DNA of 64,000 bases, from positions 124,001 to 188,000 of the forward strand of contig NNSG01000003.1 in NCBI GenBank assembly GCA_002256485.1, read 5' to 3'. This stretch comes from Fidelibacterota bacterium 408169. GTDB taxonomy: Bacteria; Fidelibacterota; Marinisomatia; Marinisomatales; TCS55. Both the position numbers and the translations under genes were made by a program. Below the pieces are notes generated by a model. That model ran no database searches. It was not told the DNA's origin and saw only the letters and a list, made by a program, of their open reading frames with translations. Shown piece by piece: positions 11,180-46,600 of the stretch. The first letter of the stretch is position 1. Each line of letters starts with the position of its first letter.

Positions 11180-11752
11180 ATGAATGACAAATATATAAAC
11201 ATTTTCAAAGAAACCGGCGCATTACTTGAAGGTCATTTTGTCCTGACATCCGGTCGCCATAGTGCCACATATTTTCAGTGCGCCAAAGTGCTTCAATATC
11301 CACAACATTTATCTCATTTTTCTGAATCAATTATTGATTTTTTTAAGGAAATTGAAATCGACGCTGTCATATCACCAGCTGTTGGCGGAATAGTTATCGG
11401 TACAGAAGTGGGACGACAGTTAGGAGTAAAAACCATTTTTGCTGAAAGACAGAATAGTATAATGACACTCCGCCGCGGATTCGAGATTAATGTTGGCGAA
11501 AAGATTTTAGTAGTGGAAGATGTCATCACTACCGGCGGTTCAGTGAAAGAAGTGATGGATTTGGTAGAAAAATGCGGTGGAGACGTAGTTGGAGTTGGAG
11601 TCGTTGTTGACCGCAGCGGAGGAAACGCAGCTTTACATGAAAATCAATTTGCTGTCACATCACAGACGGCTGTGAGTTATTCACCGGATGACGTGCCGGA
11701 AGAATTGGAACAAATACCAATAGAAAAACCAGGAAGCAGGAGTTTAAAGTGA
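11180..11752 (+). CDS. pyrE: Orotate phosphoribosyltransferase
   Basis: This 190-residue enzyme adds PRPP to orotate to make OMP, the substrate of PyrF. The PRPP-binding motif [12 protein letters not shown] (111-122) is intact, and the N-terminal region ([17 protein letters not shown]) is typical of OPRT. It ends with 4 bases overlapping the following cyclophilin gene (GTGA). A 70-base AT-rich gap separates it from pyrF with no terminator seen. Confidence 0.96.
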
Positions 11753-12348
11753 AACAATTAACGCTCGTATTAATAGGACTATTATTTATGAATGCATATA
11801 CAAAAGAAGAAAATGTAGCAGTAATATCAACTCGGTTTGGGGATATGGTATTAGAATTCTATCCGGATGTTGCACCAAAACACGTGGAAAGTTTCAAGAT
11901 CCATGCTCAAAATGGATATTTTGATGGAACCACATTTCACCGAATTATTCCTGGATTTGTTATTCAGGGCGGTGATCCCAATTCAAGAGATGAGGACAAA
12001 ATGAATGATGGTCAAGGCGGCCATGCTGCTAAATTTTATGGTTTTGGAGACGAAGCGATTGACTCCACATGGACCTTACCAGCAGAATTTAACGAGCTAC
12101 CTCACGTTACAGGCGCATTATCCATGGCTCGAACTCCGGATGAAAACAGCGCGGGGAGTCAATTTTTCATTTGCGCTGCTGCAGTACACCAACTTGATAA
12201 TCAATATACTGTATTTGGTCAGGTTATATCCGGGTTGGATGTGATACAACAGATCGTAAATACACCTCGCGATAATCGTGACAATCCTAAAGAAAAAGTA
12301 GCAATGAATGTATCCATTATGCCCAGGAGTAAAGCACTACAAGAATGA
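11749..12348 (+). CDS. Exported cyclophilin-type peptidyl-prolyl isomerase
   Basis: The product is 199 residues with a short signal ([18 protein letters not shown]) and then a full cyclophilin domain. Signature stretches are [19 protein letters not shown], which includes the catalytic Arg/Phe positions, and [20 protein letters not shown]. It probably helps proline isomerisation in periplasmic protein folding. The GTG start overlaps the pyrE stop, and its own stop overlaps the next ATG (ATGA), so three genes are translationally coupled. Confidence 0.93.
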
Positions 12349-13253
12349 GTTTATCGGTTGGATTAGCCTTGGGAGGTGGAGGCGCCAGAGGAGCTGCACA
12401 TATTGGAGTACTTCAAATCCTCCATGAAAATGGAATTCGATTTGACAGCATTGCAGGGACAAGTGCAGGATCCATTATCGGTGCCATGTATGCCAGTAAA
12501 CAGGACCCAAAGTGGATCGAACAGCGATTCCATGAATTCTTAAGTTCAGATGATTTTCAAGCCATGGGAACTCATCGTATTCAGGAAGATCATAACCCGG
12601 ATTCGGCCATGGGACAAATGGCTAAATATGTTCGAGACAGAATTGTACTCGTCATGTCTCAACAAAAATCGTTTATCATCAAACGAGAAAAACTTGAACG
12701 GGCTATCGATTTTTTAATCCCTTCAAAGCGCTTTGATGATTTAACCATTCCCCTATATGTAACAACGACGGATCTTCACAGTGGAGAGCAAGTATTATAC
12801 GATCATGGAAATCTGATTGATGCCGTTGTCCAAAGTTGTACAATTCCAGGCTATGTTCAACCTACAGAACGTGGAGAGCAAGTCCTTGTGGATGGTGCGG
12901 TAATCGATCCAGTTCCTGTTGAAGTAATGAAATCTCAAATGGATTATGTTCTGGCAATCAGTATTACTAAAAACAGTTTACCTGATATGAAGAAAAAAAA
13001 TATTTATGAAATTTTAACTCGAGCAGAACAGATTACATCCAGATTTCTGGCCAAGTCAAAAATGGAAAAAGCAGATTTTGTAATTCATCCAAGCGTTGGT
13101 GGTCTTCATTGGTCGCGTTTTGATGAATTTGACACCCTCCTGACAAATGGACGTGATGCGGCAATTGTATCTTTAAATGAGTTAAAAGTGGACTTGAAAC
13201 GTAAAAACAGTATATTTTATAACTTGAAACAAAAATTGGGGATAAAGAGTTAA
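12345..13253 (+). CDS. Patatin-like phospholipase (RssA/YchK type)
   Basis: This is a 302-residue patatin-fold serine hydrolase. The oxyanion motif GGGGARGAAHIG is at 10-21, the nucleophile elbow GTSAG has Ser40, and the catalytic Asp is Asp183 in VDGAVIDPVPV. There is no signal peptide, so it is cytoplasmic or peripheral on the inner membrane. The family hydrolyses acyl esters; the physiological substrate is unknown. It overlaps the cyclophilin gene by 4 bases. Confidence 0.92.
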   Translation: MSLSVGLALGGGGARGAAHIGVLQILHENGIRFDSIAGTSAGSIIGAMYASKQDPKWIEQRFHEFLSSDDFQAMGTHRIQEDHNPDSAMGQMAKYVRDRIVLVMSQQKSFIIKREKLERAIDFLIPSKRFDDLTIPLYVTTTDLHSGEQVLYDHGNLIDAVVQSCTIPGYVQPTERGEQVLVDGAVIDPVPVEVMKSQMDYVLAISITKNSLPDMKKKNIYEILTRAEQITSRFLAKSKMEKADFVIHPSVGGLHWSRFDEFDTLLTNGRDAAIVSLNELKVDLKRKNSIFYNLKQKLGIKS

Positions 13254-13276: not shown

Positions 13277-15136
13277 ATGAAACGAAATAAACACATTTTA
13301 ATCATTTTAGCCCTAACAACGGTCATTTGGGGACAAATGAATCCCGTGACTATATCGGCATCGGTCAGCGAAGCTGCCCGAGCCGGAGAAGTCGTCTATG
13401 TGGAAATGACCGCAAAGATGGAGCACGAATGGCATATTTATGCACTGCATGATGCAGGTGAAGGTCCCATTGCCACCGTTATTACCATAAACGGTGATTA
13501 TGTTTCCAGACAAGGTAAGATTGATGAACCGCAACCCATCGAAAAATATGACGAAGGGTTTGATACAATTACGCGCTACCATGAAGGCACGACGCGCTAT
13601 ACAATACCTGTTCAATTAGACGGCAATATCGATCCTGGTAATATTACTTTAACGGCCACCATTCTTTATCAGGTGTGTAATGCGTCATTATGTTATCCGC
13701 CAAAAGAAGTCACAGTGGAAGTTCCTGTAGTTATTGAGACGGGAGAGCCGAGAAAAGATCATATCCAATTTGTTGCAGCATCCATCACTGACGCAAGTGG
13801 GAATATTGATCTCGATGCTGCTATCAAACAGGGTTTTTGGCCTTTTGTTATTTTGGCTTTATCCATGGGATTTTTGGCACTTTTAACACCATGTGTATTT
13901 CCCATGATTCCCATCACAGTTTCTTATTTTACCCATCAGGGAGAACTTGAAAACCAGAATCCCGTCAAGCAAGCTTCTGTCTATGGAGTAGGTATTATAG
14001 GGACATTTACTATTTTAGGATTGTTATTAGCCATAACTCTTGGTGCATCCGGGGCAAATCAATTGGCAGCCAATCCGTGGATTAATTTATTCATTGGAGC
14101 ATTGTTTACATATTTTGCCTTATCGCTGTTTGGAATGTATGAAATCCAGCTCCCGTCCAGTTTACGCCAATTAGTTCAAAAGCAGGAAGGAAGAGGCGGT
14201 TATGTGGGCACATTGTTTATGGCCGTCACGTTTACATTAACATCATTCACGTGTACTGTGCAATTTGTAGGCCTGCTGTTGGTGGCCGCCAGCCAGGGAC
14301 AGTGGTTTTGGCCTGCATTGGGTATGATCATTTTCAGTGCTGCGTTTGCACTACCATTTTTCTTTTTAGCGCTTTTCCCTCAATATTTGGCGCGAATGCC
14401 AAAATCCGGCGGCTGGCTTAATTCGGTAAAAGTGGTCATGGGGTTTTTGGAATTAGCCGCTGCATTTAAATTTTTCAGTAATACAGACCTGGTTTGGAAT
14501 TGGCAGTTTTTTACGAATACTTCCGTTCTGGCTGTGTGGACCATTCTCATGTTTTTTACCGGTTTATATTTAATGGGTAAAATTCAACTTCCCCATGACA
14601 CAAAACTTGAAATATTAAGCGTACCGCGAATGTTGTTAAGCATTTTCTTTTTGACATTTTCACTCTATTTAAGTTCAGGGCTTTTTGGCCGGCCAATTCA
14701 TGGACTTATTTATTCATATCTTCCTCCGAAACTTTCTGAAGAAGTTGGTAAAATATCTGAAGTAAACGGTGGCGAAGAATTTCAATGGTATACTGAATTA
14801 GATGATGCGTTTGTAGAAGCGAATACAATTGGTAAAAATATCTTCTTGGATTTTACGGGTTATACCTGTACAAACTGTCGGTGGATGGAATCTAATATTT
14901 TTACAAAGGAAGAGGTAAAAGAACGGTTTCAAGATTTTGTACTGGTTCGATTGTATACGGATGGGGGAAATAATTACAGGGAAAAGCAGCAATACGAAAT
15001 TGATCGATTTGGTACAGCAGCATTGCCGTATTATGTCATTTTAAGTCCGGAAGATGATGTTTTAGGTAAATTCCCGGGTATGACACGAAATTTGGATGAA
15101 TTTTTAAAATTTTTGGATAAAGGAATAACTGGATAA
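13277..15136 (+). CDS. dsbD: Thiol:disulfide interchange protein DsbD
   Basis: The protein has 619 residues and three parts. After a signal peptide comes a periplasmic alpha domain with the cysteine pair YQVCNASLCYPP (Cys134, Cys139). Next is an eight-helix membrane core with Cys206 (TPCVFPMIPITVSYF) and Cys326 (LTSFTCTVQF). Last is a thioredoxin-like gamma domain with CTNC (Cys531, Cys534). It carries electrons from cytoplasmic thioredoxin to the periplasm, serving disulfide isomerases and cytochrome c maturation. It is followed after one base by a TlpA-like lipoprotein, a plausible electron acceptor, and the cluster encodes a c-type cytochrome downstream. Confidence 0.95.
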   Translation: MKRNKHILIILALTTVIWGQMNPVTISASVSEAARAGEVVYVEMTAKMEHEWHIYALHDAGEGPIATVITINGDYVSRQGKIDEPQPIEKYDEGFDTITRYHEGTTRYTIPVQLDGNIDPGNITLTATILYQVCNASLCYPPKEVTVEVPVVIETGEPRKDHIQFVAASITDASGNIDLDAAIKQGFWPFVILALSMGFLALLTPCVFPMIPITVSYFTHQGELENQNPVKQASVYGVGIIGTFTILGLLLAITLGASGANQLAANPWINLFIGALFTYFALSLFGMYEIQLPSSLRQLVQKQEGRGGYVGTLFMAVTFTLTSFTCTVQFVGLLLVAASQGQWFWPALGMIIFSAAFALPFFFLALFPQYLARMPKSGGWLNSVKVVMGFLELAAAFKFFSNTDLVWNWQFFTNTSVLAVWTILMFFTGLYLMGKIQLPHDTKLEILSVPRMLLSIFFLTFSLYLSSGLFGRPIHGLIYSYLPPKLSEEVGKISEVNGGEEFQWYTELDDAFVEANTIGKNIFLDFTGYTCTNCRWMESNIFTKEEVKERFQDFVLVRLYTDGGNNYREKQQYEIDRFGTAALPYYVILSPEDDVLGKFPGMTRNLDEFLKFLDKGITG

Positions 15137-15137
15137 A

Positions 15138-15710
15138 ATGAATAATAATTTTACATTTTTTATATTTATTAGCTTATTGACAGTAGGATGCGGATCAAGT
15201 GAAAGGCCAGCTGAAAAAAAGATTTCTACAGAATCACTAAACATTCATCAACCGCCTTTGCCGAAAAATGCAGTTAAAGTGCCCAATTTTACATTATCAA
15301 CAACTTCAGGTGAAATTGTGAAAATGGATGATCTTTTAGGTAAGGTTGTTTTAGTGAACTTCTGGGGAACATGGTGTGGTCCTTGCCGTGCGGAAATTCC
15401 GGATTTTGTTGAATTATATAATAAACATCATGATCAGGGGTTAGAAATTGTAGGTATTACACTCACATCCGGATCCCCTGAAAAGATTCAAGCTTTCGCC
15501 GATCAATGGAATATGAATTATACTGTATTAACTGATATACAAGGTAACGAGACTCAACAAGTAACAGCAGATTATGGAAGAGCAACCGGAGGCCCAATTG
15601 TGGGTATTCCCACAACATTTCTTGTAGACCGAAATGGCTATATCGTTAAGCGATACCTTGGCCCACGGTCTGAAAAGATCTTTTATAACGATATTAAACC
15701 CTACCTTTAA
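15138..15710 (+). CDS. TlpA-like thioredoxin-fold lipoprotein
   Basis: The product is 190 residues with lipobox TVGC (Cys18), then a thioredoxin/AhpC-TSA fold with WCGPC (Cys80, Cys83) and the cis-proline region GIPTTFLVDRNG. It is a TlpA/ResA-type thiol-disulfide reductase facing the periplasm, probably reduced by DsbD immediately upstream. Such proteins reduce apocytochrome c or other exported thiols; the five-heme cytochrome about 4 kb downstream is a possible client. Confidence 0.92.
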   Translation: MNNNFTFFIFISLLTVGCGSSERPAEKKISTESLNIHQPPLPKNAVKVPNFTLSTTSGEIVKMDDLLGKVVLVNFWGTWCGPCRAEIPDFVELYNKHHDQGLEIVGITLTSGSPEKIQAFADQWNMNYTVLTDIQGNETQQVTADYGRATGGPIVGIPTTFLVDRNGYIVKRYLGPRSEKIFYNDIKPYL

Positions 15711-15725
15711 ACTTTAACTTTCTGA

Positions 15726-18686
15726 ATGTTATTATTTAAACGATTTAGCTGGGCAGTTTTTCTGCTCATTTTCACTACTGTATCTTTTCCTGAAGAAGAT
15801 TATTTTCAGCAATTCGTCCATTATACCATGGATGTAAAACTGGATATTAATGAGCATACGGTTGGTGGCCGCACTATTATAAACTACACAAACAATTCAC
15901 CCGATGATTTGAACAATATGTATTTGCATCTATTGCCCAATGCGTTTCAGGAAGGATCAGTAAAACATAGAGAATATTTACAAAAGTTAGGTCGAATGGG
16001 TCGAGCAGCTAAATTTGTAAAGGGAACAGAAGAATATTATAGTAGAGTGGATGTTTCCAGGTTCAGAATTATGAAAAATGGAGAAACATTGTCAGACACT
16101 TTTCGTGTAGATGATACAATCCTTTCTGCTGATTTAACAAACTCGTTGCAACCGGGGGAATCGTTAACTATGGAATTTGATTGGGTCCATCTTGTAGGCG
16201 AACAAGTTGAAAGAGCGGGGCGTGTGGGTGATCAATATAATTTTGCTCAGTGGTATCCAAAAGTGGTTGTCTATGATGAAAATGGTTGGCATAATCTTCC
16301 GTTTCATGCAGAAGGTGAATTCTACGGAGAATTTGGAACGTTTGATGTAACCATGGATGTACCGGGGTGGTACATTGTTGGATCATCGGGAGTTCTAACA
16401 GAAGGTGATCCCGGTTGGTCTGAAGTGACAGTTGATACTTCTCAAGATTTCAACAAATGGTTAGAGGAATTCAAGGAAAATAAAGCTGAAATTGATTCCA
16501 CATCTCGTCGCATAGTTTCCTTTCATGCTGAACAGGTCCATGATTTTGCATGGATCACATCTCCAAATTTTCTTTATGAACATGGTTCATGGAATGGAAT
16601 TGATGTTCATGTTTTGTTTAATGAGAAAAATGGTAAAAAATGGACCAAAAAAGTAACGGCTCGTTCAGAAAGAGCATTGGAATGGCTAAGTACAAAATTT
16701 GGTATGTATCCCTATCCCCAAGTAACAACCACTGATCGATTAAAAGGCGGCGGAATGGAATATCCCATGCTTGTTATGAACGGCAGTGAAAGCGAAGGAT
16801 TGATTGTTCATGAAATCGGCCATATTTGGTTTTATGGCATTTTGGGGAATAATGAAGTAACAGAAGCATGGTTGGATGAGGGGTTTACCACTTTTCAAAC
16901 AGGGCAATATATGCTAAATCGTTACGGTTCCCAGGGCTTTGATTTGGAGGGTTCGAAACGATATAAATCCTTTGAGAAAAAGTATGGTAAATTCAATAAA
17001 ATGCTTGATAGTTATCAATGGTCCACAATACGTTTCCAAACAAGCGGTAAAGATGAGCCCATTAGCCGAAAATCCTATATGTTTAATAATGGTGGTTCCT
17101 ACCGATACAATGCATACACAAAACCATCATTGATGCTAAACGAACTGAAATATGTTTTAGGTGACTCTATTTTTTATCTCGGTACGCAGGAATATTTTAA
17201 ACGGTGGAATTTAAAGCATCCAAATGAAGAGCGGTTTGTTTCTGCGATGGAAGATATAAGCGGTGAAAAACTGGATTGGTTTTTCAATCCCTGGCTCCAT
17301 AATACTCGAATCTTGGACTACGGAATCAAAAAATGGAAGAAAAAAAGACAAGATGATGGAACGTGGCAAGTTGATGTGAAAATTGTAAAGATTGGTAACA
17401 GAGAAATGCCCCAATTGCTGGAAGTAACCATGGAAGACGGCAGTAAAGAACGCATTTGGTGGAAAAATTTTCAATGGCGGAAAGAAGATACGTTTACGTT
17501 TAATGTAAAACAGAAACCTAAATCAATCGTGTTAGATCCTGATGTTCAAACATTGGATATTGATCGGCGGAATAACTTCAGCGGACGTATGGCAAAATCA
17601 ATTCAATTCAATTGGATTGATACCAATTATAATCCCCGCAACAGCTATTACATTCGATGGATTCCAACGATAATATATCATAAACTGGATGGTTATTCAC
17701 CTGGTATCAGCCTTAATAAAAAATATGGATATTGGGAAAACTTAAACTTGAAAATCAACTATGCACTTGAATCACAAAATGTGTATTGGTCCTATATTGG
17801 CAATCGAAAACCTGTGCATAGTTTTAGGGGATTTTCAAGATCGGTTCATGCCTATAATTTAGGTGGAGTTAGCGGTTATGGCGTTGAAATCAAAAATCAT
17901 TTAAACGAAGCATTTGCTGATTTTTTGACTAATTACACATCTGTTGGTCTTTATGTCACGAATGCTAAAGATACTTCATTAACTAATTTATACGATCCCG
18001 GTCAAGTAGCCGTTATATACGGTAAATACAGTTTTTCCGTAAAAAACATAGTTGATGTTAATATGGACATTGCCACGACTCCCGGTTCTGTTTCCCACTG
18101 GTCCTTCACACGATTTAATACCACGATCGCATTTGATTTCAGTAAGAAAAATTATGGTATTCGTAATCGATCCATCTTGGGCCATATTATCAGTGAATCT
18201 GGTGTTCCAGCCCAGGAACGTTATACAATCGAAGGCGCCGGTTCTGGTGATTTATATGCTAAACCATTTTTGCAGGATGAATCATCATTTTACGGCAATA
18301 CTGATTTGAGAAATCATTATCATTTGCCCGGAGATGCTAATTTGCGAGGCTATTATGGAGAGGGATTAACTGGTTCAGAATCCGTGATTGCGAATTCATT
18401 TGAAATTTTTTATAAACCATCCTTTAAATTATTGGATATTGAATTAGCAGCGTTTATTGATGACGGTTGGGTCTGGGGAAGTAAATATATTCAAGGAGAC
18501 GGTGGATTTAATGGTGATTATTTAATTGATGCCGGTCTGGGATTACGTTTAAATAAATCCATTTTAGGAAAAGATTTTTACCTACGATTAGATGCTCCAT
18601 TCTTTATTAAAAATGTTCATGACAAAGATGGCGGTTACGGAATAGATTTTGACAAATGGTTATTTAGTTTTTCAAAAGGAATATAG
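15726..18686 (+). CDS. M1 family metallopeptidase fused to an Omp85-like beta-barrel
   Basis: The product is 986 residues. A signal peptide (about 1-22) precedes an aminopeptidase N-type region: the exopeptidase motif is GGGMEYP (341-347) and the zinc site is HEIGH (362-366) with Glu385 in WLDEGF, exactly 18 residues on. After about residue 620 the peptidase ends and a beta-rich segment begins, with alternating aromatic/polar strands. It has LRGY (873-876), a FIDDGWVWG strand, and GLGLRLN...YLRLDAPFF near the C-terminus, the pattern of the Omp85/D15 surface-antigen barrel. The protein would thus be an outer-membrane barrel carrying a peptidase. The barrel call rests on motifs and strand pattern, not on a structure. 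Confidence 0.85.
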   Translation: MLLFKRFSWAVFLLIFTTVSFPEEDYFQQFVHYTMDVKLDINEHTVGGRTIINYTNNSPDDLNNMYLHLLPNAFQEGSVKHREYLQKLGRMGRAAKFVKGTEEYYSRVDVSRFRIMKNGETLSDTFRVDDTILSADLTNSLQPGESLTMEFDWVHLVGEQVERAGRVGDQYNFAQWYPKVVVYDENGWHNLPFHAEGEFYGEFGTFDVTMDVPGWYIVGSSGVLTEGDPGWSEVTVDTSQDFNKWLEEFKENKAEIDSTSRRIVSFHAEQVHDFAWITSPNFLYEHGSWNGIDVHVLFNEKNGKKWTKKVTARSERALEWLSTKFGMYPYPQVTTTDRLKGGGMEYPMLVMNGSESEGLIVHEIGHIWFYGILGNNEVTEAWLDEGFTTFQTGQYMLNRYGSQGFDLEGSKRYKSFEKKYGKFNKMLDSYQWSTIRFQTSGKDEPISRKSYMFNNGGSYRYNAYTKPSLMLNELKYVLGDSIFYLGTQEYFKRWNLKHPNEERFVSAMEDISGEKLDWFFNPWLHNTRILDYGIKKWKKKRQDDGTWQVDVKIVKIGNREMPQLLEVTMEDGSKERIWWKNFQWRKEDTFTFNVKQKPKSIVLDPDVQTLDIDRRNNFSGRMAKSIQFNWIDTNYNPRNSYYIRWIPTIIYHKLDGYSPGISLNKKYGYWENLNLKINYALESQNVYWSYIGNRKPVHSFRGFSRSVHAYNLGGVSGYGVEIKNHLNEAFADFLTNYTSVGLYVTNAKDTSLTNLYDPGQVAVIYGKYSFSVKNIVDVNMDIATTPGSVSHWSFTRFNTTIAFDFSKKNYGIRNRSILGHIISESGVPAQERYTIEGAGSGDLYAKPFLQDESSFYGNTDLRNHYHLPGDANLRGYYGEGLTGSESVIANSFEIFYKPSFKLLDIELAAFIDDGWVWGSKYIQGDGGFNGDYLIDAGLGLRLNKSILGKDFYLRLDAPFFIKNVHDKDGGYGIDFDKWLFSFSKGI

Positions 18687-31060: not shown

Positions 31061-31615
31061 ATGAAAGGAAACTATTACCACATTTACAATCGCGGGATTG
31101 ATAATCGGCCAATCTTCTTTAATGATGATAATTATCATTATTTTATTCGGCTGATGAAAGAAAACCATAAGAGATACAATATTTCGATTCTTGTTTATTG
31201 CTTGATTCCCAATCATTTTCACATACTTGTGCAGCAAAAATCTGAAATAGACGTTTCTCGTTTTGTTCAATCATTGAATAATGCCTTTGTTCAGGGTATA
31301 AATAAACAATTGAAAAGAAAAGGGACGTTGTACGAGGGAAGGACTCAGACAAAATTAATCCAGGATGAAGATTATTTAATGCATGTATGCCGCTATATTC
31401 ATTTGAATCCCATCAAACATAATTTAGTGAAAAATATTTCAGACTGGGAATTTTCAAATTTTCAGACGTGCATCAATGGTGAAAATGATGAATTAACGGA
31501 AATGAATTTTATTGTGGAATTATTCGGCTCCAGAGACAGCTACAAGGAGTTTGTAGAGGATTATATCCCGATAATGGAGGAAAAGAGTACAATGAAGGAG
31601 TATGTTTTAGAATGA
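31061..31615 (+). mobile_element. rayT: REP-associated tyrosine transposase (RAYT, Y1_Tnp/IS200-like)
   Basis: The gene codes for a 184-residue HUH single-strand nuclease of the Y1 transposase family. The HUH motif is NHFHILV (His52, His54), and the likely nucleophile is Tyr112 in CRYIHLNPIKHNLV. The N-terminus YYHIYNRGIDNRPIF is characteristic of RAYTs. These enzymes cut and join REP palindromes. REP-like copies lie just upstream (30883-31017) and just downstream (31635-31820), as expected for a RAYT locus. The TGA stop overlaps the ATG of the giant gene (ATGA). The frame is intact, so it may be active. Confidence 0.88.
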
Positions 31616-34600
31616 AAAATTTTTTTAATAGCGCAACCTTTCTAACCTATCAAAGGTTCCAAACCAGCATCCAACCTTTCAAAGGTTTCCCGCCAAAAAA
31701 CAGGCGGGCAGGCAACCCAACCCAACCTTTCAAAGGTTTCAAACCTTTGAAAGGTTTTTGGAGAAGGGAAACCTTTGAGAGGTTCAAGGGTAGTGCAAGT
31801 TTCAAACCTTCGCAGGGTTGGATTATAAGGTTTGTTTTTATCTTACTGACCCAAGTGGCCTTTTCCCAAACCACCTACGTCCCCGATGATAACTTTGAGC
31901 AAGCCCTCATTGACCTGGGTTACGACGACACCCTGGATGATTATGTGCTAACAGCAAACATCTCTGGTGTTACCAACCTGGATGTCAACAATAAAGAAAT
32001 CAGTTACCTGACGGGGATTGAAGATTTTACAGCCTTAACTCAGCTACACTGCCATTCTAATCAACTAACCACTCTAGATATCAGCGCTAATACCGCCTTG
32101 ACCTACTTGCGCTGTGAAAATAATCAATTAACCAGTCTGGATGTGAGCAGTAATACCGCCTTAACCAACCTTGGGTGCCATTCTAACCAATTGACCAGCC
32201 TGGATGTGAGCAGTAATACCGCCTTAACCAGCCTTGGGTGCCATTCTAACCAATTGACCAGCCTGGATGTGAGCGCCAATACTGCCTTAACCCAACTGGA
32301 ATGCTATGATAATTCATTGACCAATCTGGATGTAAGCAACAATACAGCTCTAACCTACCTAAACATAGGTGATAATCCTTTGGGCAGCCTGGATGTAAGC
32401 GGCAATACCGCCTTAACAATTTTGCAATGCTATAATAATCAATTAACCAGCTTGGATGTAAGCAACAATACAGCTCTAACCTACCTAGAAGCCCAGAATA
32501 ATTCATTAACCAGCCTGGATGTGAGTGCTAATACAGCCTTGACCTACCTGAACTGCAATAGTAATTCATTGACCAGTCTGGATGTAAGCAGCAATACGGC
32601 TTTAACCCAACTGAACTGCAATCATAATCAATTAACCAGCTTGGATATGAGTGCTAATACAGCTTTAAACATGCTGAATTGTCTAAGGAATGAATTAACC
32701 AGTCTAAATGTGAGTGCTAATACAACATTAACCAGTTTGGATTGTGAACAGAATCAATTGACAAGCTTGGATGTGAGTTCAAATATAGCCTTAACCTACT
32801 TGGAATGTGGAGCTAATCAATTGACCAGCCTGGATGTGAGCAACAACACTGTTTTACCTAAACTGTTTTGCTATGAAAATCAACTAACCAGCCTGGACGT
32901 GAGCAACAATACAGCATTAGAAGAGTTGTATGTAAACAATAATCAATTAACCAGCCTGGATGTGAGTGCTAACACCGCCCTGACCAATTTGGACTGCTAT
33001 GATAATCAATTAACCAGCCTGGATGTGAGTAGTAATACGTCTTTGTTCAACTTGCAATGCGGAGAGAATCAATTGACCAGCCTAGATTTGAGTAGCAATA
33101 CAGCTTTAGGCGGTCTGACTTGCGGTAGTAATCAATTAACCAGCCTGGATGTGAGCAGCAATACAGCCTTAACCCACTTGGAATGCCAATATAATCAAAT
33201 AACTGCTCTGGATGTGAGTAACAATACAGGATTGAACATTTTGAAATGTCAAACTAATCAATTAACCAGCCTGGATGTGAGCAGTAATACAGCCTTAACC
33301 CAATTGCACTGTAGTAGTAATCAATTAACTTATTTGAATATGAAAAATGGACTTACAGATCAACTGTCGTCTTTTTCCGCACAAAACAATTCTCTTACTT
33401 GTATTGAAACCTTGGATCCCGTTTATGCCACCGCGAACTGGACCTACGCCAATGAGAATATCGATGCAGGTGTAACCTTTGACGTCATCTGCGGGGCGGA
33501 AGCACGCACCCATTGGTATGTTGCAACCACCGGTTCGGATAATTCCGGCAGCGGCACCCTGGCGAGCCCCCTGGCCAATATCCAGACTGCCATTAATGCT
33601 ACCACCGATGGGGATACAGTTTCTGTTGCAGCTGGCACCTATGTAGAGAACATCAACTTCAACGGCAAGAATATTGCTGTCATTGGGGCGGATTCCTCCA
33701 ATACCATTATTGATGGGGATAGTAGCGGAACAGTAGTTGTGTTTAGTGGAACAGAAACCTCAACAGCTCTACTTAAGAATTTTAAAATTCAAAATGGTTA
33801 TGATGATTCAAACGATGGCGTAGGCGGCATTTACTGTGCGGATGGCGCGAATCCAACTTTAGAAAATCTGATCGTTTCAGATAATATAGATGACTTTGGT
33901 GGTAATGGAGCAGGAGGTATTTCTGTTGCTCCAGGCACTGGAGACACATTAAGAATCATGGGATCCGTTATAAGAAATAATAGTGGAATTTGGGGTGGTG
34001 GCGGATTACTTATTCAAGGAGATCAAACTGGAGTAACATTATTGACAAATGTATATATTGAGAATAATACATCTAATTCTGGTGGCGGGATAATGATCGA
34101 TGGTGGGGTTGCGATTCTTGATTCTGTTACAATAATGAATAATACAGCTGGTTCGGGGAATATTACAGGGAATATAGGCGGCGGCGGCATTGATATTTCT
34201 AATGCCACATTATATTTGTTAAATAGTACTATAAATAATAATTCGTCCGGGTCTGATGATTATGGCGGCATCAATGGAGGCGGTATTGGTGCTTATAATT
34301 CCACATTGACTATTGAAAACACAACTCTGACCGGTAATACTGCTACCGGAAGCGGCGGCGGTATTTATTCTGAAAATTCATCATTTACATTGGATAGTGT
34401 CACCGTTTCAAATAATACAGCCCAAGTAGATGGTGGGGGTATATGTGCCATTAATGTAAACCTGGTAATGAAATCAATTGACGTTATAAATAATTCTTGT
34501 GTTGGAAATGGTGGCGGCATGTACTATAAAGGATTTACTGAAAAAACAATAATTTCATCCTCTAATTTTCTTAGTAATCACAGCACAGGTAATTCTGGTG

Positions 34601-37600
34601 GAATCCATATGCACCAGGCATATGGAGGTTCTGATGTAATATACCTAAATACATTAATTGCAAACAACACGAGCGGTGGTGTCGGAGGTTTCGGCGGCTA
34701 TGACAGTTGGCCATCTTTTTACAATGTTACGATTGCAAATAACCATGGTTCAGTATCAGGAGGCTTAGATCTAAACAACGGATCAAGGACAAAATTAACC
34801 AATGTTATTGTACATGATAATTCTCCCTATAATATCAGAGTATCCACTGATAGCAACTACAGGGATTCGTTAATTGTTAATTATTCAAATATTAGTGGCG
34901 GTGTAGATGGAATAAACATTGCAATAAGTCCAGTCGAAATAATTTGGGGCACCGGCAATATCGATTCCGACCCTCTTTTTGCGGACACATCGAATGGAGA
35001 CTATACCCTGCTAGCTAGCTCACCAGCAATTAATGCTGGTAGTCCTAACGCTTTCTATAATGATGGTGATGGTACCCGCAACGATATGGGTTACACCGGC
35101 GGGAATGGGATTGTATTAAGCACTACGGAATTTGAATTTGGCTATGTTGCGGTGAATGACAGCAGAAGTAAAACACTTACCATTACCAACACAAAAGATT
35201 CCGATATTTCTGTTTCCGGCGCATCCTTTGACGATGCCCAGTTCAGCGCCAGTACATCATTTCCAGTGACCGTTGTCGCCTATTCAACAGCAGATATCAC
35301 TCTTACCTTTACGCCCTCTGCCACTGGTGCCCACGCCGGTACACTACAGCTTTCGTCTGATAATATTCCCGGGGATGCTACCTATGGCGAATTCGCCCTT
35401 TCCGGAAACGCTTTTGACTTAAGCGACGGTGTGGTGGAGGTTCCTGGAGAGGTGCCCACCATCCAGGAAGCGATTGATGCGGCTAGTAATGGGGATACTG
35501 TTTTAGTAAGTGCTGGGACGTACTACGAAAATATTGAAATCAATGGCAAGTATATTGCTTTAATAGGTGCAGATAGTGCCACCACCATTCTTGATGGCGA
35601 TAGCACTAGTGGGGTTTTGAGCTTGGGTTACGATAATGGCGGCGTATCCTTAATTAAAAGGTTTACGATTCAAAATGGGAATCGCAGTCCTGGTGGAGGT
35701 ATAGTAATCAATCACAGCAATGCTGTGTTGGATGAATTACTTATTCAAAACAATGAGTCTACAAATAATGGCGGGGCCATCATTGCCTGGGACTGGGATG
35801 GATCCCTAACCAATTCTATCGTCCAGAACAATTATAGTGGAAATGAAGGCGCTTTGAATATAAGTAGTGGATCAGACCTTTCCATCTCTAACGTAGAAAT
35901 AAGTGACAATACTGCACAACAATCTGGCGGCGGTATGTTTATAGATAATGAATCGTCTGTTACCATGGACAATGTTGGATTTTGGTATAACACTTCTTCA
36001 AGTGGAGATGGAGGAGCTTTTCAATCGGAAGGTAAACTATTTGCAAGGAACTGTGAATTTGCCGGCAACACTGCAGGTTCGGGAGGTGCTGGAAAATTGT
36101 CGTATAGTACTAATCCGGAATCGATGTTTGTTAATTGTCAGTTTAGGTCAAACACTGCAGAGTCGGCAGGTGGTGCTGTTTGGTGTATGAATACAAACAC
36201 ATTGTTTTTTGCTTGTCGATTTTTATTTAATAGCGCTGGAAGCACAGGCGGTGCAATTGCGGTTACCAATGGCCAAACTCCAAATATCATCAATACCACC
36301 ATTGCCGGCAACACAGCTAGTATAGATGGCGGAGGTTTATACTATAATATTCAATCTACTTCTGTAGCAAAAATTGAAAATTCCATTATCTGGGGAAATT
36401 CGCCTGATATGATCTCTTTTGAAGATAACCCCGGAACTTATAATGAAAGTTATGTCTCAATTCATTATTCGGATATTCAAAACGGTCTGGCTGGAATAAC
36501 AAATCGTGAAGACCATTTCCTGACCTGGGGAACAGGTAATATATCTGAAGACCCGCTTTTTCCAAGCGGATGGGAAACCAATGGCAATGTGAGTATTGAA
36601 GCGGGGTCGGGGTCACCAGCGATTGATGCCGGTAATCCCAATGCTTTCTATAATGAGGGGGGTGGTACTCGAAATGACATGGGTGCCAATGGGGGTAACG
36701 AAATTTATATCAGTTCCGAAGATGTTGATTTTGGAAACGTTGCGACTACAGGTACATGTTGCACACGAAGATATATTTATAACCTTAACCCTAGCGACCT
36801 GGAGCTGACTTCATACTCTTCATCAGATGGAATTTTTTATGTCGCCAATAATCAGGAAATTCCAATCGATATAAAGCAATTTGAAAAGTTTGGTCCTAAT
36901 TTTGGTTTGCATAGTTTATCTGCTGGCGAATACACTGGGGAAATTCAAATAAACTTTGCCAATGAAAGTCAGAATAATGGAACATTTTATGCAACTGCTA
37001 TGGCCTATGACATCCCTGCCGGCGACATTCACGTCCCCGCCGATGCACCTACTATTCAGGTGGCTATAGATATTGCGCAGAGCGGAAAAACGATTGTGGT
37101 GGCACCGGGAGAGTATTTTGAGAATATTATAGCAAAAAGTGATATATCCCTTACATCATCTGGAGGGCCCTTACAGACTATTATTAATGGAAATAATGAG
37201 GGAGTTGTTATAGAGGGGCATAATGACATAGCTTACAATTTTACATTAGATGGTTTCACAATTACAGGTGGAAATGGCGCATACTATGAGCATGGGGCAT
37301 CCGCTATGTATTTAGAAGCTGGCAGTACACTGAGAAACCTCATTATTACTGGAAATACTGGATGGGGAAATGTCAGCCAGTTCCATCCTAGAGGCACACT
37401 CATTGAGAATGTTGCTATTTTTGACAATGTAAATTCTGGAACCTTAAACTCTAATGCAGCAGTTTACATTCATGGAGACGGTAATGATGGCGAATATTGT
37501 GTTATAAAAAACGTAACGATTGCGGGCAATGAAGGTATGTTCGGCATTTTTTATGGTGGTCAAGATAATACACATGATTTAGTCATTTATAATTCTGTTA

Positions 37601-40600
37601 TATGGGGCAACAACGATTATGAAATTGTTTACGGTGGTGGTTTTTCAATTCCAGATTATGGAATACACGTAGAATATTCACTGATTGAAGGCGGTGAAAG
37701 CGCGATAGAGTACGAGCCTAATACAAATAACGGATGGGTAGCAAGCTCTAATGTACAAGTTTATTGGTCTTCAACTGACATCACATCCTACCCCTATTTC
37801 AACGACCCCGATAACGGCGACTACAGCCTGTCTTCCTATTCCCCTATGATTGGCGCCGGCGCCAGTTCTTATTCTATTGACGGCGTCACCTACGAAGCAC
37901 CGGATACAGACATCCTGGGCAATGCCAGACCCAACCCCGCCGGCACCAATCCCGATATTGGCGCCTACGAAAGCAGCGAAAGTGCAGCGGACTATAACCC
38001 CCACAAGTATGTTGCCACCACGGGCAGCAATAGCAATTCCGGAGTAATTACAGATCCATTCTTAACCATACAATACGCCATTGACCAGGCCCAGGATGAT
38101 GATATTATTCATGTGGCTGCGGGGACTTACGTAGAAAATATTAACTACAATGGAAAGAATATTTCTGTGATTGGTGAAGACCGGGAAACGACGATTATTG
38201 ATGGGAATCAGAACGGGAGTGTGGTTTTATTTCACGGCCAAGAAGATAGTACTGCTTTAGTAAAAGGTTTTACAATTCAAAATGGTTCAGGTTATTACAG
38301 TAATTCAGATGCGCAAGGTGGCGGTATACATATTCAAAGTTCAAACCCAACATTAGATGATTTAATAATTTCGAATAATATATTAGATGCAAACACAGGT
38401 TCTCCAAATGGTGGTGGAATTATGGCATATAGTTCAGACGGTCTATCAATTAAAAATACGATTATAAGGGACAACATTTCCTGGAATTCAGGCGGTGGAA
38501 TAAATATTCATAATTCAACTGCCGATCTTGAAAACGTATCCATCATTAATAATCAAACGGATAATCAGGGTGGTGGAATTTATTCCTATGGTTCATACTT
38601 GAATCTCACCAATGTATTGATAGCAGATAATTATTTGCGGAATGATGGGTCTGGATCTGCAATTTATAGTTGGAATGATGGTGATGCGTCTGCTGGATCT
38701 CTTACTATAATCAATTGTACGGTTGTGAATAATACTGGGGGTTCGGATGAAATATTGACAAATCTAAACCCTGCACCCATTATTTATAATTCGATTATTT
38801 TTGGTTCACTGGGTTGGGGTGCTGAATATGAGCTGTATTATAGCTACTGCGAGCAATGTGACAACCTTATTAATTATACGAATAATCCTGGCAACATAGA
38901 TACCTATCCCGCATTCGCTGACACCGCCAACGGCGACTACCATTTATCTGATCTTTCTCCCGCCATCAGCGCCGGGACAGATACAATTACCATTGCCGGT
39001 GTTTTGTATAGCGCTCCCACTACAGATTTAGACGGCAACCCCCGGCCCAATCCGGCAGGCACGTCCCCGGACATGGGCGCTTACGAAAGTGATAAGGGGG
39101 TAGACCCCAACTACGCCGGCCCGGTGTGGTACGTGGACGGCCCGGCAGGAGTGCCTTACGGCAATGGCGGCCCCGGGGCGCCTTTCACCACTATCCAGGC
39201 GGGGATTGATGCCTCCAGCAGCGGAGATACAGTTTCTGTAAAAGCCGGCACTTATGTAGAAAATATTAACTTCAATGGCAAGAATATTGCTGTGCTTGGT
39301 GAAGACCGGGAGACGACTATCATTGATGGGAATCAGGCTGGTAGCGTGGTTACAATTGAATCGGTGGCCACCGCGAGCCTTGAGAACCTAACGATGCAGA
39401 ATGGCACTGGTACGGATATGATAAACAATGGCGAAATGTGGGGTGGCGGAATTTTTATTAAATCATCTGGCGTTGCAATTACCAACTGCGTAATTAAAGA
39501 TAATACTGCTATTTCTGGTGGTGCAGGTATATATACTGACTATTCTTCAACGCTCCTAATGGATGGCTGTGTAGTAAAATCAAATGGTATTATAACTCAA
39601 GGTTCTGGTGCCGGGATAAATACACACAGTTCTACAGTAACTATAAGAAACACTCTTGTTGCAGATAATCAGGCAGTCCAAGGTGGTGGTGTATATTTTT
39701 GGACCAGCACACCTACACTTGATAAGGTGACTATTATTAATAACAGTGCCAGTGATGTTGGCGCTGGTGTCTTTTGTGTTTATGATTCAGATCCAGTTAT
39801 AACAAATTCCATTATTCGAAATAATAACGGCCCACACCCAATATACCTTGCTGCGGGTGACAATAATGATATTAGTATTGGATACAGTGATATTTCTTAT
39901 GGTATAGATAGTATCACAGTAATTGGCAGCTCAACAGTTACAGATCTTGGTGGAAACATTGATGTAGATCCCATGTTTGTGGATACCGCCAGCGGCGATT
40001 ACCATTTGCTGGCTACTTCACAGCTAATCAACGCCGGTCACCCGGATTCAACAGACAGCGATGGCACGGTTGCCGATATTAGCGCTTATCCTTATTTAAA
40101 CAGCTACAGTGGTCCCACCTGGTATATTACTGAGGGCGGAAACGATACCACCGCCACCGGTGCCAGCGACGATCCCTTCCGATCTATTCAGGCCGGGATT
40201 AATTTTTCATCAGACGCTGACAGTGTGACTGTTGCGGCGGGGACTTACGTAGAGAATATCAATTTCCGGGGCCGGAATATTAAGGTGGTAGGTGCAGATC
40301 GAGAAACGACGATTATTGATGGGAATCAGAATGGTCCAGCTGTTAAGTTTAAAAATCAAGAAACTTATTCATCTTTTCTTTCCGGCTTCACCATACAAAA
40401 TGGTAACGCTTACGAATTAGCCTCAAGTGGTAGCTCGGAATATGGTGGGGGTGGAATTTATTGTGATGGTGGATCATCTCCCATCTTAAGTAATCTCACA
40501 TTAAAGAATAATAATGCATCTGGTGAGGGGGCTGCTCTTTATTGTCACTCAGGAAGTAGTCCCAAAATAAATGACATAGTTATAACAGAAAATGCTCAGA

Positions 40601-43600
40601 ATAATAATATTTCTGCTATCTCTTTCAAAGCCGGGTCCAACCCAAAAATATCTGGCTCACTTATATTTGGAAATTACGGTGGAATAAACGCCTCTGGTAC
40701 ATCGAGACCGGAGATTACTTCGAGTAATATTATTGATAATATAACTGAGGGTAATTTAAGCCTAAGTATTGATACAGAATCGGGAAGCGCCTTAGTAATT
40801 ACTAATTCTATCATTCAAATTAATGGATCAATAATTGGAGAAGACAGTATTGACGTAAGCTACTCAATGACAAATGATTCATTGTTGTTCTCACTTACAA
40901 CATTTTACACTGACCCAATGTTTGTAGACACCGCAAATGGCAATTACCACCTGCTGGCTTCTTCCCAGCTGATCAACGCCGGCCACCCGGATTCCACAGA
41001 CAGTGATGGTACTGTTGCTGACATTGGCGCCTATCCTTATCTCACAGATAATACGGAACCTGTGTGGTACATAAATACAACAGGGAATGATACAACAGGA
41101 ACTGGTACTTCTGTTAATCCTTTCGCTTCCATCCAGGCCGGGATCAATTTCTCATCGGATACTGACAGCGTTACCGTGGCCGCGGGCACTTATGTGGAGA
41201 ATATCAACTTCCGGGGCCGGAACATTAAGGTAGTAGGGGCAGACCGGGAGACGACGATTATTGATGGGAGTCAGGATACAACATTTAATCATGGAACAGG
41301 TGTAGTTTGGTTTGATTCCCAAGAACCTGTTACAACACTGCTTAAGAATTTTACAATTCAGAACGGTACCAGTGAAACTGGCGGCGGTATCAGAATTTTT
41401 GTTGCATCCCCTACATTTGAGAACCTCATTGTAAGAAACAACTTAGCTGGGGCTGGCGGAGGCGTTTATATCCAGACTGGTAACCCTGTGTTTAATAATG
41501 TCCACTTCATTTCAAATGATGCCAGCGTAAGTTACAGTAGAGGTGGATCAGTAATGATAACAGGTGGGTCATCGCCAGTATTTTTTAGATGTTCTTTTGT
41601 CAATAATAGTAGTGGTAATGGCGGCGCTGTATTTATAGATGAATCAACACCGGACTTTGTAAATACTACCTTTCATGAGAATAGCCCTAATAATATGGTA
41701 CTTAATACCGGTTCGATGGATGCCGGGCATGCGATAGTGGATATTTCGAACTCAGTATTTGTTAGTAATAGCGCTGAGCACATTATATTTTTGGATACCA
41801 GTGCACCAGTGAATCAAATAAATATTGAATACTCAAGCATTCAAGGCGGCCAGGATAGCATTATCACCAACGATAATGGGACCGTCACCTGGGGTGATGG
41901 CAATATTGATGTAGATCCCATGTTTGTGGATACCGCCAACAGCAACTACCACCTGCTGGCTTCTTCCCAGCTCATCAACGGCGGCCACCCGGATTCCACC
42001 GACAGCGACGGCAGCAGGGCAGACATTGGCGCTTATCCTTATTTAAACAGCTACAGTGGTCCCACCTGGTACATTACTGAGGGCGGAAACGATACTACTG
42101 CCACCGGATCCAGCGATGATCCTTTTCGATCTATCCAGGCCGGGATCAATTTTTCCAGTGATGCTGACAGCGTCACCGTTGCGGCAGGAACGTATGTGGA
42201 AAATATCAACTTCCGAGGCCGGAACATAAAGGTAGTGGGTGAAGACCGGGAGACGACGATCATTGATGGGAACCAGAATGGGAGTGTGGTTACATTTGAG
42301 AATGGGGAAGATTTTACTGCGGTGTTGAGTGGTTTTACGATCACAAATGGTAGAGCTCAGGGGAGTTATCCATATGATCAAGGTGGAGGTATTTTTTGTA
42401 TGGGAAGCGACCCCGTACTCACAGATCTTATAATAAGCAATAATTCAGCATTATTAGGCGCTGGAATTGCATGTGAGAATTCATCAACACCCACAATAAA
42501 TAATACAGAAATAATTAGCAATACTATTATTGGTGAACAAGACGGCGGTGGCGGACTTTTTCTGCATGGCTCATCCTCCCCCATAATTGAATATGTTTTT
42601 ATTAGTAATAATTTTGGTGGAAACAATGGTGGCGGGTTGGTTGCAAAAGCTGGGAGCAACCCCATTCTAAAGCACGTAACTATTGTTGGAAACTCTGCTA
42701 CTAATGCGGGTGGTGGGATTGCTTGTTATACAAATTCGAACCCGATATTGTCTAATGTAACCATTGTTGGAAACACAGCCGAAAGCAGCTCTGGTGGTAT
42801 ATCTATTGGTGATAACAGTGCGCCCGTATTGACGAATACGGTGCTTTGGAATAATTTTCCGCGGGAAATCAGTTTTTATCCAGACGACGATCCCAGCTCA
42901 ATTGAAATAAATTATTGCGATGTACAAGGCGGCCAGGATAGCATTATCACCAACGATAATGGGACCGTCACCTGGGGTGATGGCAGCATCGATGTGGATC
43001 CCATGTTTGTGGATACCGCCAATGGCGATTATAGTTTAACAGCCGACTCCCGTTGCATTGACGCCGGCCACCCCGATTCTACAGATGCGGATGGCACTAT
43101 TTCCGATATGGGCGCCTATTATTACGACCAGGCCGGTCAGCCGGTACGGGTCAGTAACCTTATTACCACTCCTTCAGCGGACAATGTTTCAGTTAAATGG
43201 AATGCAAACAGCGCTGCCGCATCCTACAATATTTACAGATCCATTGATGGGAGTGCTGATTTTTATTCCTTAAGTCCATACACTACAGAATCAGACACAT
43301 CGTACGTGGATGAGACCGCAGCAGACAATACGACCTACCATTACCGTGTGTCTGCCGTAGACAGCGAAAGCGATGAAGGGATCCTGGCTTATTCAGAACA
43401 CGGACGTACCGGCCCCGATAGCACAGCGCTCTATATGCCGGATGTGTACCTGAGCCGTACCACACCGCCGGACCTGGACGCGGGGACAAACTTTACCCTG
43501 GAAGGGTTTTTCCGCTTCCTGGAGACGCCAGTGGAAGAAAGGAAGTTTATTTTCCTGGGCTGGGAAGTCTCTGTTGCCACGTTCCCTGATGAAGCAGGTA

Positions 43601-46600
43601 CTCTATTGCGCCTTATCCACAATGAAAGCTCCTATGACGGGATTGTTATTGGCGATACTTCCTGGCACCACCTGGCCCTGGCTACAGACGGCAGCACAAC
43701 TACACTATGGGTGGACGGCTATGCTGCGGCCCAGAGCACAGCTGGTTTCAATGTAAATGGCGGCTGGTTGCAGCTGGGCAACCCTGGTGCATCAGCGCAA
43801 ACCATTGAGATGGACGAGGTCCGGCTTTCTAATGTGACCCGCTACAGCGCCGGGTTTATTCCTGTGGCGATAACAAATGATGAAAATACTTTGGGCTATT
43901 GGCGCTTTAACGAAGGTTCTCTTGATGCGGATTTTCCAACTGTGTACGATCTTTCCGGTAACGGATTGCACCTGGAGCTTGATGGGGCCGGCCAGGCAGC
44001 ATGGAACCCGGATGCGCCTGTAAGGACCGATACAGAAAATGCAATTGCCATAAACGAAATTATGCAGAATCCTTCTGCCGTCAGTGATCCCCTGGGCGAG
44101 TGGGTTGAAATACAAAACCGCTGGTTTACGCCCGTCCATTTAAAAGATTTTATTTTGGCTGATGACGGCACCGATAACCACACCATTATAACCGACGTTG
44201 CTATACAGTCTGACGGTTTTGGTGTTTTCGGTCTCAATGCCGATACATCCACCAATGGCGGGGTAGACGTGGATTATGAATTATCCGGGTTTTCCTTGGG
44301 AAACAGCACCGATGAAGTGGTTTTGAAATTACCAGACGGCACCGAACTCGACCGTGTGAATTATGATAACGGCGTTACCTTTCCCGATCCGTCCGGCGCA
44401 TCCATGGAACTCATTGCGCCCCATTATAATAATGCAGTCGGCACTAACTGGACCGCTGCTACCGGTTTGTATGGCGATGGCGATCTCGGTTCTCCCGGCC
44501 GCCGTAACGATGCTTTTTCCGGTCAAATCGTTATGTCTGATTCCACCTTTAATTTCGGAGGTATTGTCTCCGGTGAGGATGTGAGCGATACATTGATCAT
44601 TTCCAATATGGGTGTTCGCCGTCTCATGATAGACTCCATTACCGTTTCCCTCCCGGAATATTCATTAACACCTGCAACTGCCGTATTGGAGATCGGCGAT
44701 TCGATAGAAATCCTTATTGCTTATGCCCCCAACGCAGCGGGAGTATATAATGATCATGTGCGCATTTATAGCGATGATCCCGTGAACTCCTTGGTGACAA
44801 TTCCCCTTTACGGCGTCGGCATCAGCGATGTACCGGATATTATTGTAATGACAGCCGATGATGACAGCTTGTCTGCTTATGGATTTCCCTATACTCGCAT
44901 CGGCTCTCCCCGGACATTCACTTTTGATGTTATCAATATTGGCGCCGAAGACTTGGAAATTGATGAAATTGTTATTTCAGGCGATGACAACGCTTTCAGT
45001 GTGGACGTAAGTTCCCTGAACCTGGAACTCTACGACACCACCGCTGTTACAGTCACATTTGATCCGCCCACCAACGGCACCTACAACGCCACTCTGTCCC
45101 TTACCAGCAACGATCCCGATGAGGCGTTATACACTATTGCGTTTGATGGTGTTGCATCACAATACATCATTTTTTACGTCCCCGACGAAATTGCCACGAT
45201 TCAGGCTGCTCTTGATTCCGCCCTGGCGGGCGATACAATCCATGTTTCGTCTGGCACATATGGAGAAAATTTAACGTTACCCTCCAACGATTTGGTCCTC
45301 CGGGGTGCCGGAGCTGATTCCACATTTCTCACCGGTGGTGATTCATCCCTTGTTCTTACGGTCGACGGCGGTCAAAGTAATTCCACGATTATTTCTGATT
45401 TAACCATCCAAAACGGCAGCGGAACAAATGGCGGAGGAATGCTTATTGATAACGGTTCAAGCCCCCAACTGAAGAATATCCTTTTTTATGATAACAGTGC
45501 CGCTCATGGAGCCGCTCTGTATATAGATGGATTCTCTGGCCCGAACCTGGATCATGTAACATTTGTTATCAATTCTGCCAGTGTGGACGGTGCCGGTGTC
45601 AGTGTTGCCGGTGGTTCGACTGTTTCCATTTCAAATAGTATTTTCTGGGCCAATACCGGTTCGGCAATAGAAGTTCTCTCTGGAAGTGAAACGACTACAT
45701 ATTCCATCGTGGAAGGCGGCAATGGCGGTACAGGGAACCTCGATCAGAATCCACTATTTGCAGCCCCTGCATCTGCCGACTTTCATTTACAATGGGGTTC
45801 TCCGGCTATTGATAGCGGCGATCCTGTTTCAGATTCTGATCCCGATGGTACCAATACGGATATGGGTGTTTATTACTACGATCAGTCTTACCAGCCGCCG
45901 AATGCACCGACAGGATTGGCATTTACTCCGGCTGCAGCAGATGTCACACTCCAATGGACAGCCAACCCGGAAGTGGACCTAACCGGTTACATTATTTACA
46001 AAGGTCTTTCCACCGATCAATTGGATTCTCTGAATGTGGTTTCTGCCCCAAACAATACCTATTCCGATTTGAATATTGATCCGGCTGCTGTTTCTTATTA
46101 TCAGATTGCCGCTGTAGATACATCTCAATTATTGAGTGAACGATCAGATATTCTTACCGTATCTTATCCTCTCATTGCTACAAATGAATCACAGATCAAT
46201 TTTGGCAGTATATTATTTGGAACACAGGGTGTGCAAATTATGTCTGTCCAAAATATGGGTTCCATGGATCTCACCATCGACAGTATTTATGTGGAAGATC
46301 AAGATCATTTTATTGTGAGTGTTGGCGGGCGGGTTTTGTTACCCTCGTCCGGTACTCATATAAAAGATATTCGTACTCTTTCATTATCAGCACCAGAAAA
46401 TTCCGGGCGAAGCCAAGACAACAATTCACCAAATTTGGATAATAGTATTAAAGGAAATGACGATATAAAACGTGCAAATCTTGAGGAGTTTAGTATCCTT
46501 CCCGGTGACAGCCTGGAAATAACAGTTTCTTTCTCAAGCCCGGATACAGGTTCGTATACTACAAACCTCTTTGTTTCCAGCGATGATCCAGTTGGTAATA

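Follow-up and report, generated by a model that had tools for sequence, protein, structure and literature searches.

An M1 metallopeptidase and a predicted Omp85-type barrel joined in a single protein of Neomarinimicrobiota

The ORF at 15726–18686 (+ strand) of the window, by which we mean the whole 64,000-nucleotide stretch of DNA that was analysed, raises the question of whether a metallopeptidase and an outer membrane barrel are indeed encoded as one polypeptide, and if they are, on which side of the membrane the enzyme should be located and what the barrel would do for it. The source genome, from a marine member of the Neomarinimicrobiota, has a size of 2.47 Mb. The ORF listing and the translation give a single uninterrupted frame of 986 amino acids, in which a signal peptide is followed by an M1 metallopeptidase, by M1 domain III and by a C-terminal barrel (Table 1), and the fusion of peptidase and barrel in one chain, claimed in a preliminary description of the locus, is confirmed. 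The sole Pfam match of the whole 986-residue protein is Peptidase_M1 (6.5e-15). The signal peptide region has no lipobox cysteine in its sequence and residues 2–18 are modelled as a helix by AlphaFold; the extent given in the table is approximate, as it was read from the sequence and from this helix. The full-length AlphaFold model is of moderate quality (pLDDT 72, pTM 0.57) and does not fix the placement of the peptidase relative to the barrel.

Table 1. Features of the fusion gene and of the genes upstream, in window coordinates.
Feature	Coordinates	Strand	Evidence
pyrE, secreted cyclophilin PPIase and stand-alone patatin	11180..13253	+	ORFs overlapping or near-abutting, gene order
DsbD homolog, conserved upstream neighbour	13277..15136	+	Pfam, synteny
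TlpA-like lipoprotein thioredoxin, 15 bases before the fusion gene	15138..15710	+	Pfam, synteny; lipoprotein status from sequence only
Putative Sec signal peptide, residues 1-22 approx.	15726..15791	+	Sequence: KR, then hydrophobic stretch
M1 N-terminal beta domain and thermolysin-like catalytic domain, residues 25-530	15798..17315	+	Pfam, Foldseek
Exopeptidase motif GGGMEY, residues 341-346	16746..16763	+	Sequence, ortholog alignment
Zinc-binding motif HEIGH, residues 362-366	16809..16823	+	Sequence, ortholog alignment
Glu385, third zinc ligand	16878..16880	+	Ortholog alignment
YTKP with Tyr464, probable catalytic Tyr of M1 aminopeptidases	17115..17126	+	Ortholog alignment, analogy
M1 domain III beta sandwich, residues 532-603, and conserved tail DxDxRNN, residues 611-617	17319..17576	+	AlphaFold, conservation
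Predicted 16-stranded Omp85-type barrel, residues 641-982	17646..18671	+	AlphaFold, PDB fold matches, conservation, Pfam in orthologs
Long conserved loop 6, residues 824-885, with GDANLRGY; LRGY at 873-876	18195..18380	+	Model, conservation
Strand-13 motif FIDDG, residues 910-914	18453..18467	+	Ortholog alignment
C-terminal closing strand LFSFSKGI, residues 979-986	18660..18683	+	Sequence, barrel model

The peptidase part has the HExxH-18-E zinc site that the preliminary description had pointed out, and its residues H362, E363, H366 and E385 are each found in all 54 orthologs compared. The exopeptidase motif, noted in the same description, is equally well kept, with G342, G343, M344 and E345 invariant in the 54 orthologs and a Tyr at position 346 where the usual M1 residue is Asn. 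Y464, also identical in 54 of 54, is assigned by analogy and is presumably the catalytic Tyr of M1 aminopeptidases. A Foldseek search with the full model gave M1 aminopeptidases as all 50 PDB matches listed. The catalytic residues are intact and nothing in the sequence suggests an inactive enzyme, and we infer that the M1 part has aminopeptidase activity. Domain III is built from six strands and has no helices according to the AlphaFold secondary structure.

The junction between the two parts lies behind domain III. In stand-alone three-domain M1 enzymes such as Riemerella WP_004920554 and Xanthomonas WP_043095740, which are homologous to the query over residues ~22–617, the chain stops 5–6 residues after the conserved NN pair 616–617, whereas the fused proteins continue for ~360 residues beyond it into the barrel. 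The fusion is therefore best read, from these alignments, as a barrel appended to a three-domain M1 enzyme. The idea that the barrel has taken the place of a helical domain IV is unsupported, since the stand-alone relatives of other phyla also stop after domain III. In the AlphaFold model the junction is predicted to have no POTRA domain, because domain III is without helices and the segment 532–625 is all-beta with no beta-alpha-alpha-beta-beta unit. POTRA is common in Omp85 proteins but does not occur in all of them; classes without it, including one called ‘noNterm’, have been published before (PMC4104836).

Both the full-length model and a model of the barrel only show 16 strands over residues 641–982, and the latter, which was built with 42 orthologs, has a pLDDT of 89.7 and a pTM of 0.84. 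When it was compared with the PDB all 50 matches listed were BamA or TamA, with modest TM-scores near 0.5 and 11–14% identity, indicating that the kinship to these proteins is distant. Strands 11 and 12 are linked by a 62-residue stretch that holds the LRGY motif, named in the preliminary description together with an Omp85-like barrel, and FIDDG is located in strand 13; these are the sites of the Omp85 signature motifs. Arg874 is present in 54 of 54 orthologs, position 875 is Gly in 41 and Ala in 13, and an aromatic residue (Y, F or W) is found at 876 in 53 of 54; in strand 13 Phe910 is kept in 54, Asp912 in 53 and Gly914 in 48 of the 54. The conservation of R874, F910 and D912 spans orthologs that are only 16–18% identical to the window protein in the C-terminal part, and it far exceeds chance. 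The C-terminal part of the window protein has no Pfam match of its own, and the match to Omp85 at sequence level comes from the orthologs, where the barrel of L033 is above the gathering score of Pfam Omp85 (PF01103, 6.5e-8) and 4 of 42 barrels match PF01103 at E<=1. With hhalign the barrel profile matches the TamA-like barrels of the same genomes (probability 88, E 2.8e-6) but the BamA barrels of these genomes are not recognised (probability 0.3), indicating that the barrel is either closer to TamA-like proteins or just divergent; no match was obtained to TonB-receptor barrels (probability 0.4) or to M1 (probability 0.2), and no meaningful match when the profile was compared with PDB sequences. 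Strand alternation is stronger than in shuffled sequences, yet the same test does not separate the barrel from the M1 strands. By model and by sequence, the barrel can thus be assigned to the Omp85 superfamily.

The genes upstream are tightly packed. The run pyrE, cyclophilin, patatin, DsbD, TlpA and fusion gene shows overlaps or gaps of at most 23 bases in the window, which suggests that it is transcribed as one unit; the PPIase and the patatin were named by Pfam and pyrE from its sequence. The order pyrE-PPIase-patatin is kept in L035, L036, L037 and L038. A cluster with DsbD and TlpA had been described for this stretch, and it is found again upstream of nearly all orthologs: of 33 distinct loci (38 listed minus L035–L039, which appear to be repeats of genomes in the list as judged by their equal identity to the query), 31 have a TlpA-like gene directly adjoining and 30 have a DsbD homolog. 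Among the loci missing DsbD, one has too little flanking sequence. The link is genetic only. There is no cysteine in the fusion protein, and 0–5 are found in its orthologs, so a direct thiol or redox action of DsbD or TlpA on the fusion protein is ruled out, and the linkage more likely reflects a common function in the cell envelope. The apparent operon partners include three envelope proteins, namely the cyclophilin, DsbD and TlpA. The stand-alone patatin-like gene (12345–13253), is located three genes upstream of the fusion gene; Omp85 fusions of the PlpD type have patatin as their enzyme.

As to which side of the membrane carries the enzyme, both termini of Omp85 proteins are periplasmic. 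In the barrel model the odd-to-even connections are predicted to be the longer ones (3, 6, 3, 11, 9, 62, 9 and 16 residues, against 3, 8, 7, 3, 2, 7 and 2 for the even-to-odd ones), which would place the N-terminal side of the barrel, and hence the peptidase, in the periplasm, although the contrast between the two sides is small when loop 6 is left out. In PlpD, the best-studied enzyme-Omp85 fusion, the enzyme has been shown to be retained in the periplasm (PMC11116518). By model and by analogy we infer that the peptidase is on the periplasmic side, with a barrel acting as an anchor rather than as a translocase. The protein would be exported by Sec, as expected from its signal peptide, and its last ~345 residues would insert into the outer membrane as the predicted 16-strand Omp85-type barrel, with the conserved loop 6 folded inward, like in other Omp85 proteins. 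The zinc peptidase would then be suspended from strand 1 into the periplasm, where other Omp85 proteins have their POTRA domains, and might remove N-terminal residues from peptides that cross the outer membrane or that stem from periplasmic protein turnover, the barrel being mostly an anchor or scaffold. We consider it reasonably probable that the fusion is such an outer-membrane-anchored M1 metallo-aminopeptidase trimming peptides at the periplasmic face.

Other readings of the same protein differ in the side of the membrane or in the use that is made of the barrel. If the location on the outer membrane proposed in the preliminary description was meant as surface exposure, the barrel would have to transport the M1 domain that precedes it in the chain through the membrane, to let the enzyme digest peptides outside. 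Surface enzymes would fit the lifestyle suggested by the type IX-type sorting domains at the C-terminus of other proteins of the same genomes, and PlpD was initially interpreted likewise, as type Vd autotransport (PMC4104836), but an M1 unit of ~600 residues must here traverse a 16-strand barrel, and the periplasmic termini of Omp85 proteins, the loop pattern and the finding for PlpD (PMC11116518) all argue for the inner side, so that display is unlikely. The pore-like character ascribed to the barrel is likewise unsupported. A barrel working as a gated pore, with peptides passing straight on to the peptidase, would agree with enzyme and barrel sharing one chain, 1:1, but the conserved loop 6 of 62 residues likely fills the lumen and Omp85 barrels make poor pores in their resting state, which makes such a coupling very improbable. 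That the protein is a soluble M1 peptidase with a merely extended beta domain is hardly credible: the missing Pfam match of the C-terminal part is in its favour, but domain III is a complete module separate from and ahead of the barrel, the barrel model is confident with BamA or TamA as every PDB match listed, and orthologs have an Omp85 Pfam match. Neither outcome that the preliminary description had named as a refutation came about, as a barrel is predicted and the M1 beta domain is a module of its own.

The barrel may instead have retained an insertase or translocase activity of Omp85 proteins, the peptidase clearing failed or processed substrates. The loop-6 Arg and the FxDxG of strand 13, both tied to function in working Omp85 proteins, are retained, and the cyclophilin, DsbD and TlpA would be suitable neighbours. 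M1 enzymes are, however, exopeptidases acting on short peptides and not proteases of misfolded proteins, no POTRA is predicted, and BamA and TamA-like proteins are present in the same genomes. Quality control was suggested by Heinz and Lithgow for a different N-terminal fusion class (PMC4104836), but for the present protein a role in assembly appears quite improbable. A wider proposal, in which M1 replaces POTRA in a phylum-wide class of Omp85 proteins and acts jointly with the barrel in peptide uptake or in assembly and trimming, seems doubtful beside the anchored aminopeptidase that we favour.

A search for the fusion in other genomes, proposed in the preliminary description, gave near-full-length orthologs in a single frame; of the 101 related genomes, about 55 have one. 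Members with 42–44% identity are found in a different family within the class of the source genome, and members with 35–43% in other parts of the phylum. A second clade of M1-barrel fusions, ~30% identical, is found across the phylum and its barrels are homologous to the window barrel (hhalign probability 99.3, E 2.4e-20). In the M1 tree each of the two fused clades is strongly supported, and unfused M1 proteins of other phyla are placed between them, but weakly supported and on long branches. The tree is therefore compatible with one fusion origin or with two. Judged from these sequences, the M1-Omp85 fusion is old and widespread within the phylum and the second clade is an old paralog. In a family with reduced genomes (f15) the M1 proteins have about 740–920 residues, and its member L109 lacks the barrel. 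A scan of contigs from close-relative genomes gave fusion loci solely in Neomarinimicrobiota, the matches inspected in plasmid records were unfused M1 proteins, and no fusion was found in viral contigs.

The second M1-barrel gene of the source genome (L115:833-3827, contig C1) is split into two overlapping frames of 272 and 732 codons, whereas in its relatives a single frame spans about 1000; a frameshift, a pseudogene or an assembly error could each account for this. L103, L106 and L108 are further M1 proteins with HExxH but without GGMEYP (1031 and 1059 residues in total, L108 being incomplete). Their C-terminal parts are comparable in length, and they possibly constitute a third fused group.

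Several known types of proteins are built along similar lines. The PlpD or patatin-like Omp85 proteins (formerly type Vd), which are homodimers, also combine an N-terminal hydrolase with a 16-strand Omp85 barrel in the same chain, but there with patatin and POTRA, in place of an M1 metallopeptidase with no predicted POTRA. TamA and BamA share the barrel fold, the R-G-aromatic motif of loop 6 and FxDxG in strand 13, but at ~11–14% identity, and they carry POTRA where the window protein has its peptidase. PF00149 is the calcineurin-like phosphoesterase family and not an M1 peptidase family. Its domain, termed metalloprotease by Heinz and Lithgow, defines the ‘Metallo’ Omp85 subfamily, in which, as in the fusion, an Omp85 barrel is preceded by a metal-dependent domain other than POTRA (PMC4104836). 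L111 and L114 encode WD40-Omp85 proteins that have a gluzincin-type HExxH domain at the N-terminus and an Omp85 barrel at the C-terminus; they differ in the WD40-like propeller in between and in the peptidase family, which is MA_2 and not M1. In L111, from the related genome G040, Pfam recognises Peptidase_MA_2, WD40-like repeats and Omp85, and L114:2673-5624, on contig C12 of the source genome, combines a HELQH motif and WD40-like repeats with a weak match to Omp85. A second peptidase-like/Omp85 architecture is thus present in these genomes.

A survey from 2014 lists ten Omp85/TpsB subfamilies, including patatin, WD40, PF00149 and forms with no N-terminus, and no word starting with ‘peptidase’ occurs in its main text (PMC4104836). 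The 2024 paper on PlpD names metalloprotease, WD40-like and patatin-like classes with reference to this survey (PMC11116518). The M1-Omp85 fusion is absent from both accounts of Omp85 classes and was not found in the literature searched, and such an architecture may already be recorded in domain databases; the enzyme-Omp85 fusion as such is already known from PlpD. To our knowledge nearly all Omp85 proteins that have been studied assemble or move proteins. As PlpD has demonstrated, an enzyme can be held by this scaffold too. If enzymes of another, unrelated class take the same place in proteins that are conserved and duplicated across an uncultured phylum, the enzyme-Omp85 fusion would be a recurring design, and there would be a testable idea of peptide processing at the outer membrane of these bacteria.

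Two more long ORFs are present in the window. One of 981 codons (60089–63034) has no Pfam match at 1e-4. The other, located at 31612–49068, is a single ORF of 5818 codons with leucine-rich repeats, beta-helix, HYDIN/ASPM-type Ig and lamin-tail domains, and it ends in a weak type IX sorting tail.
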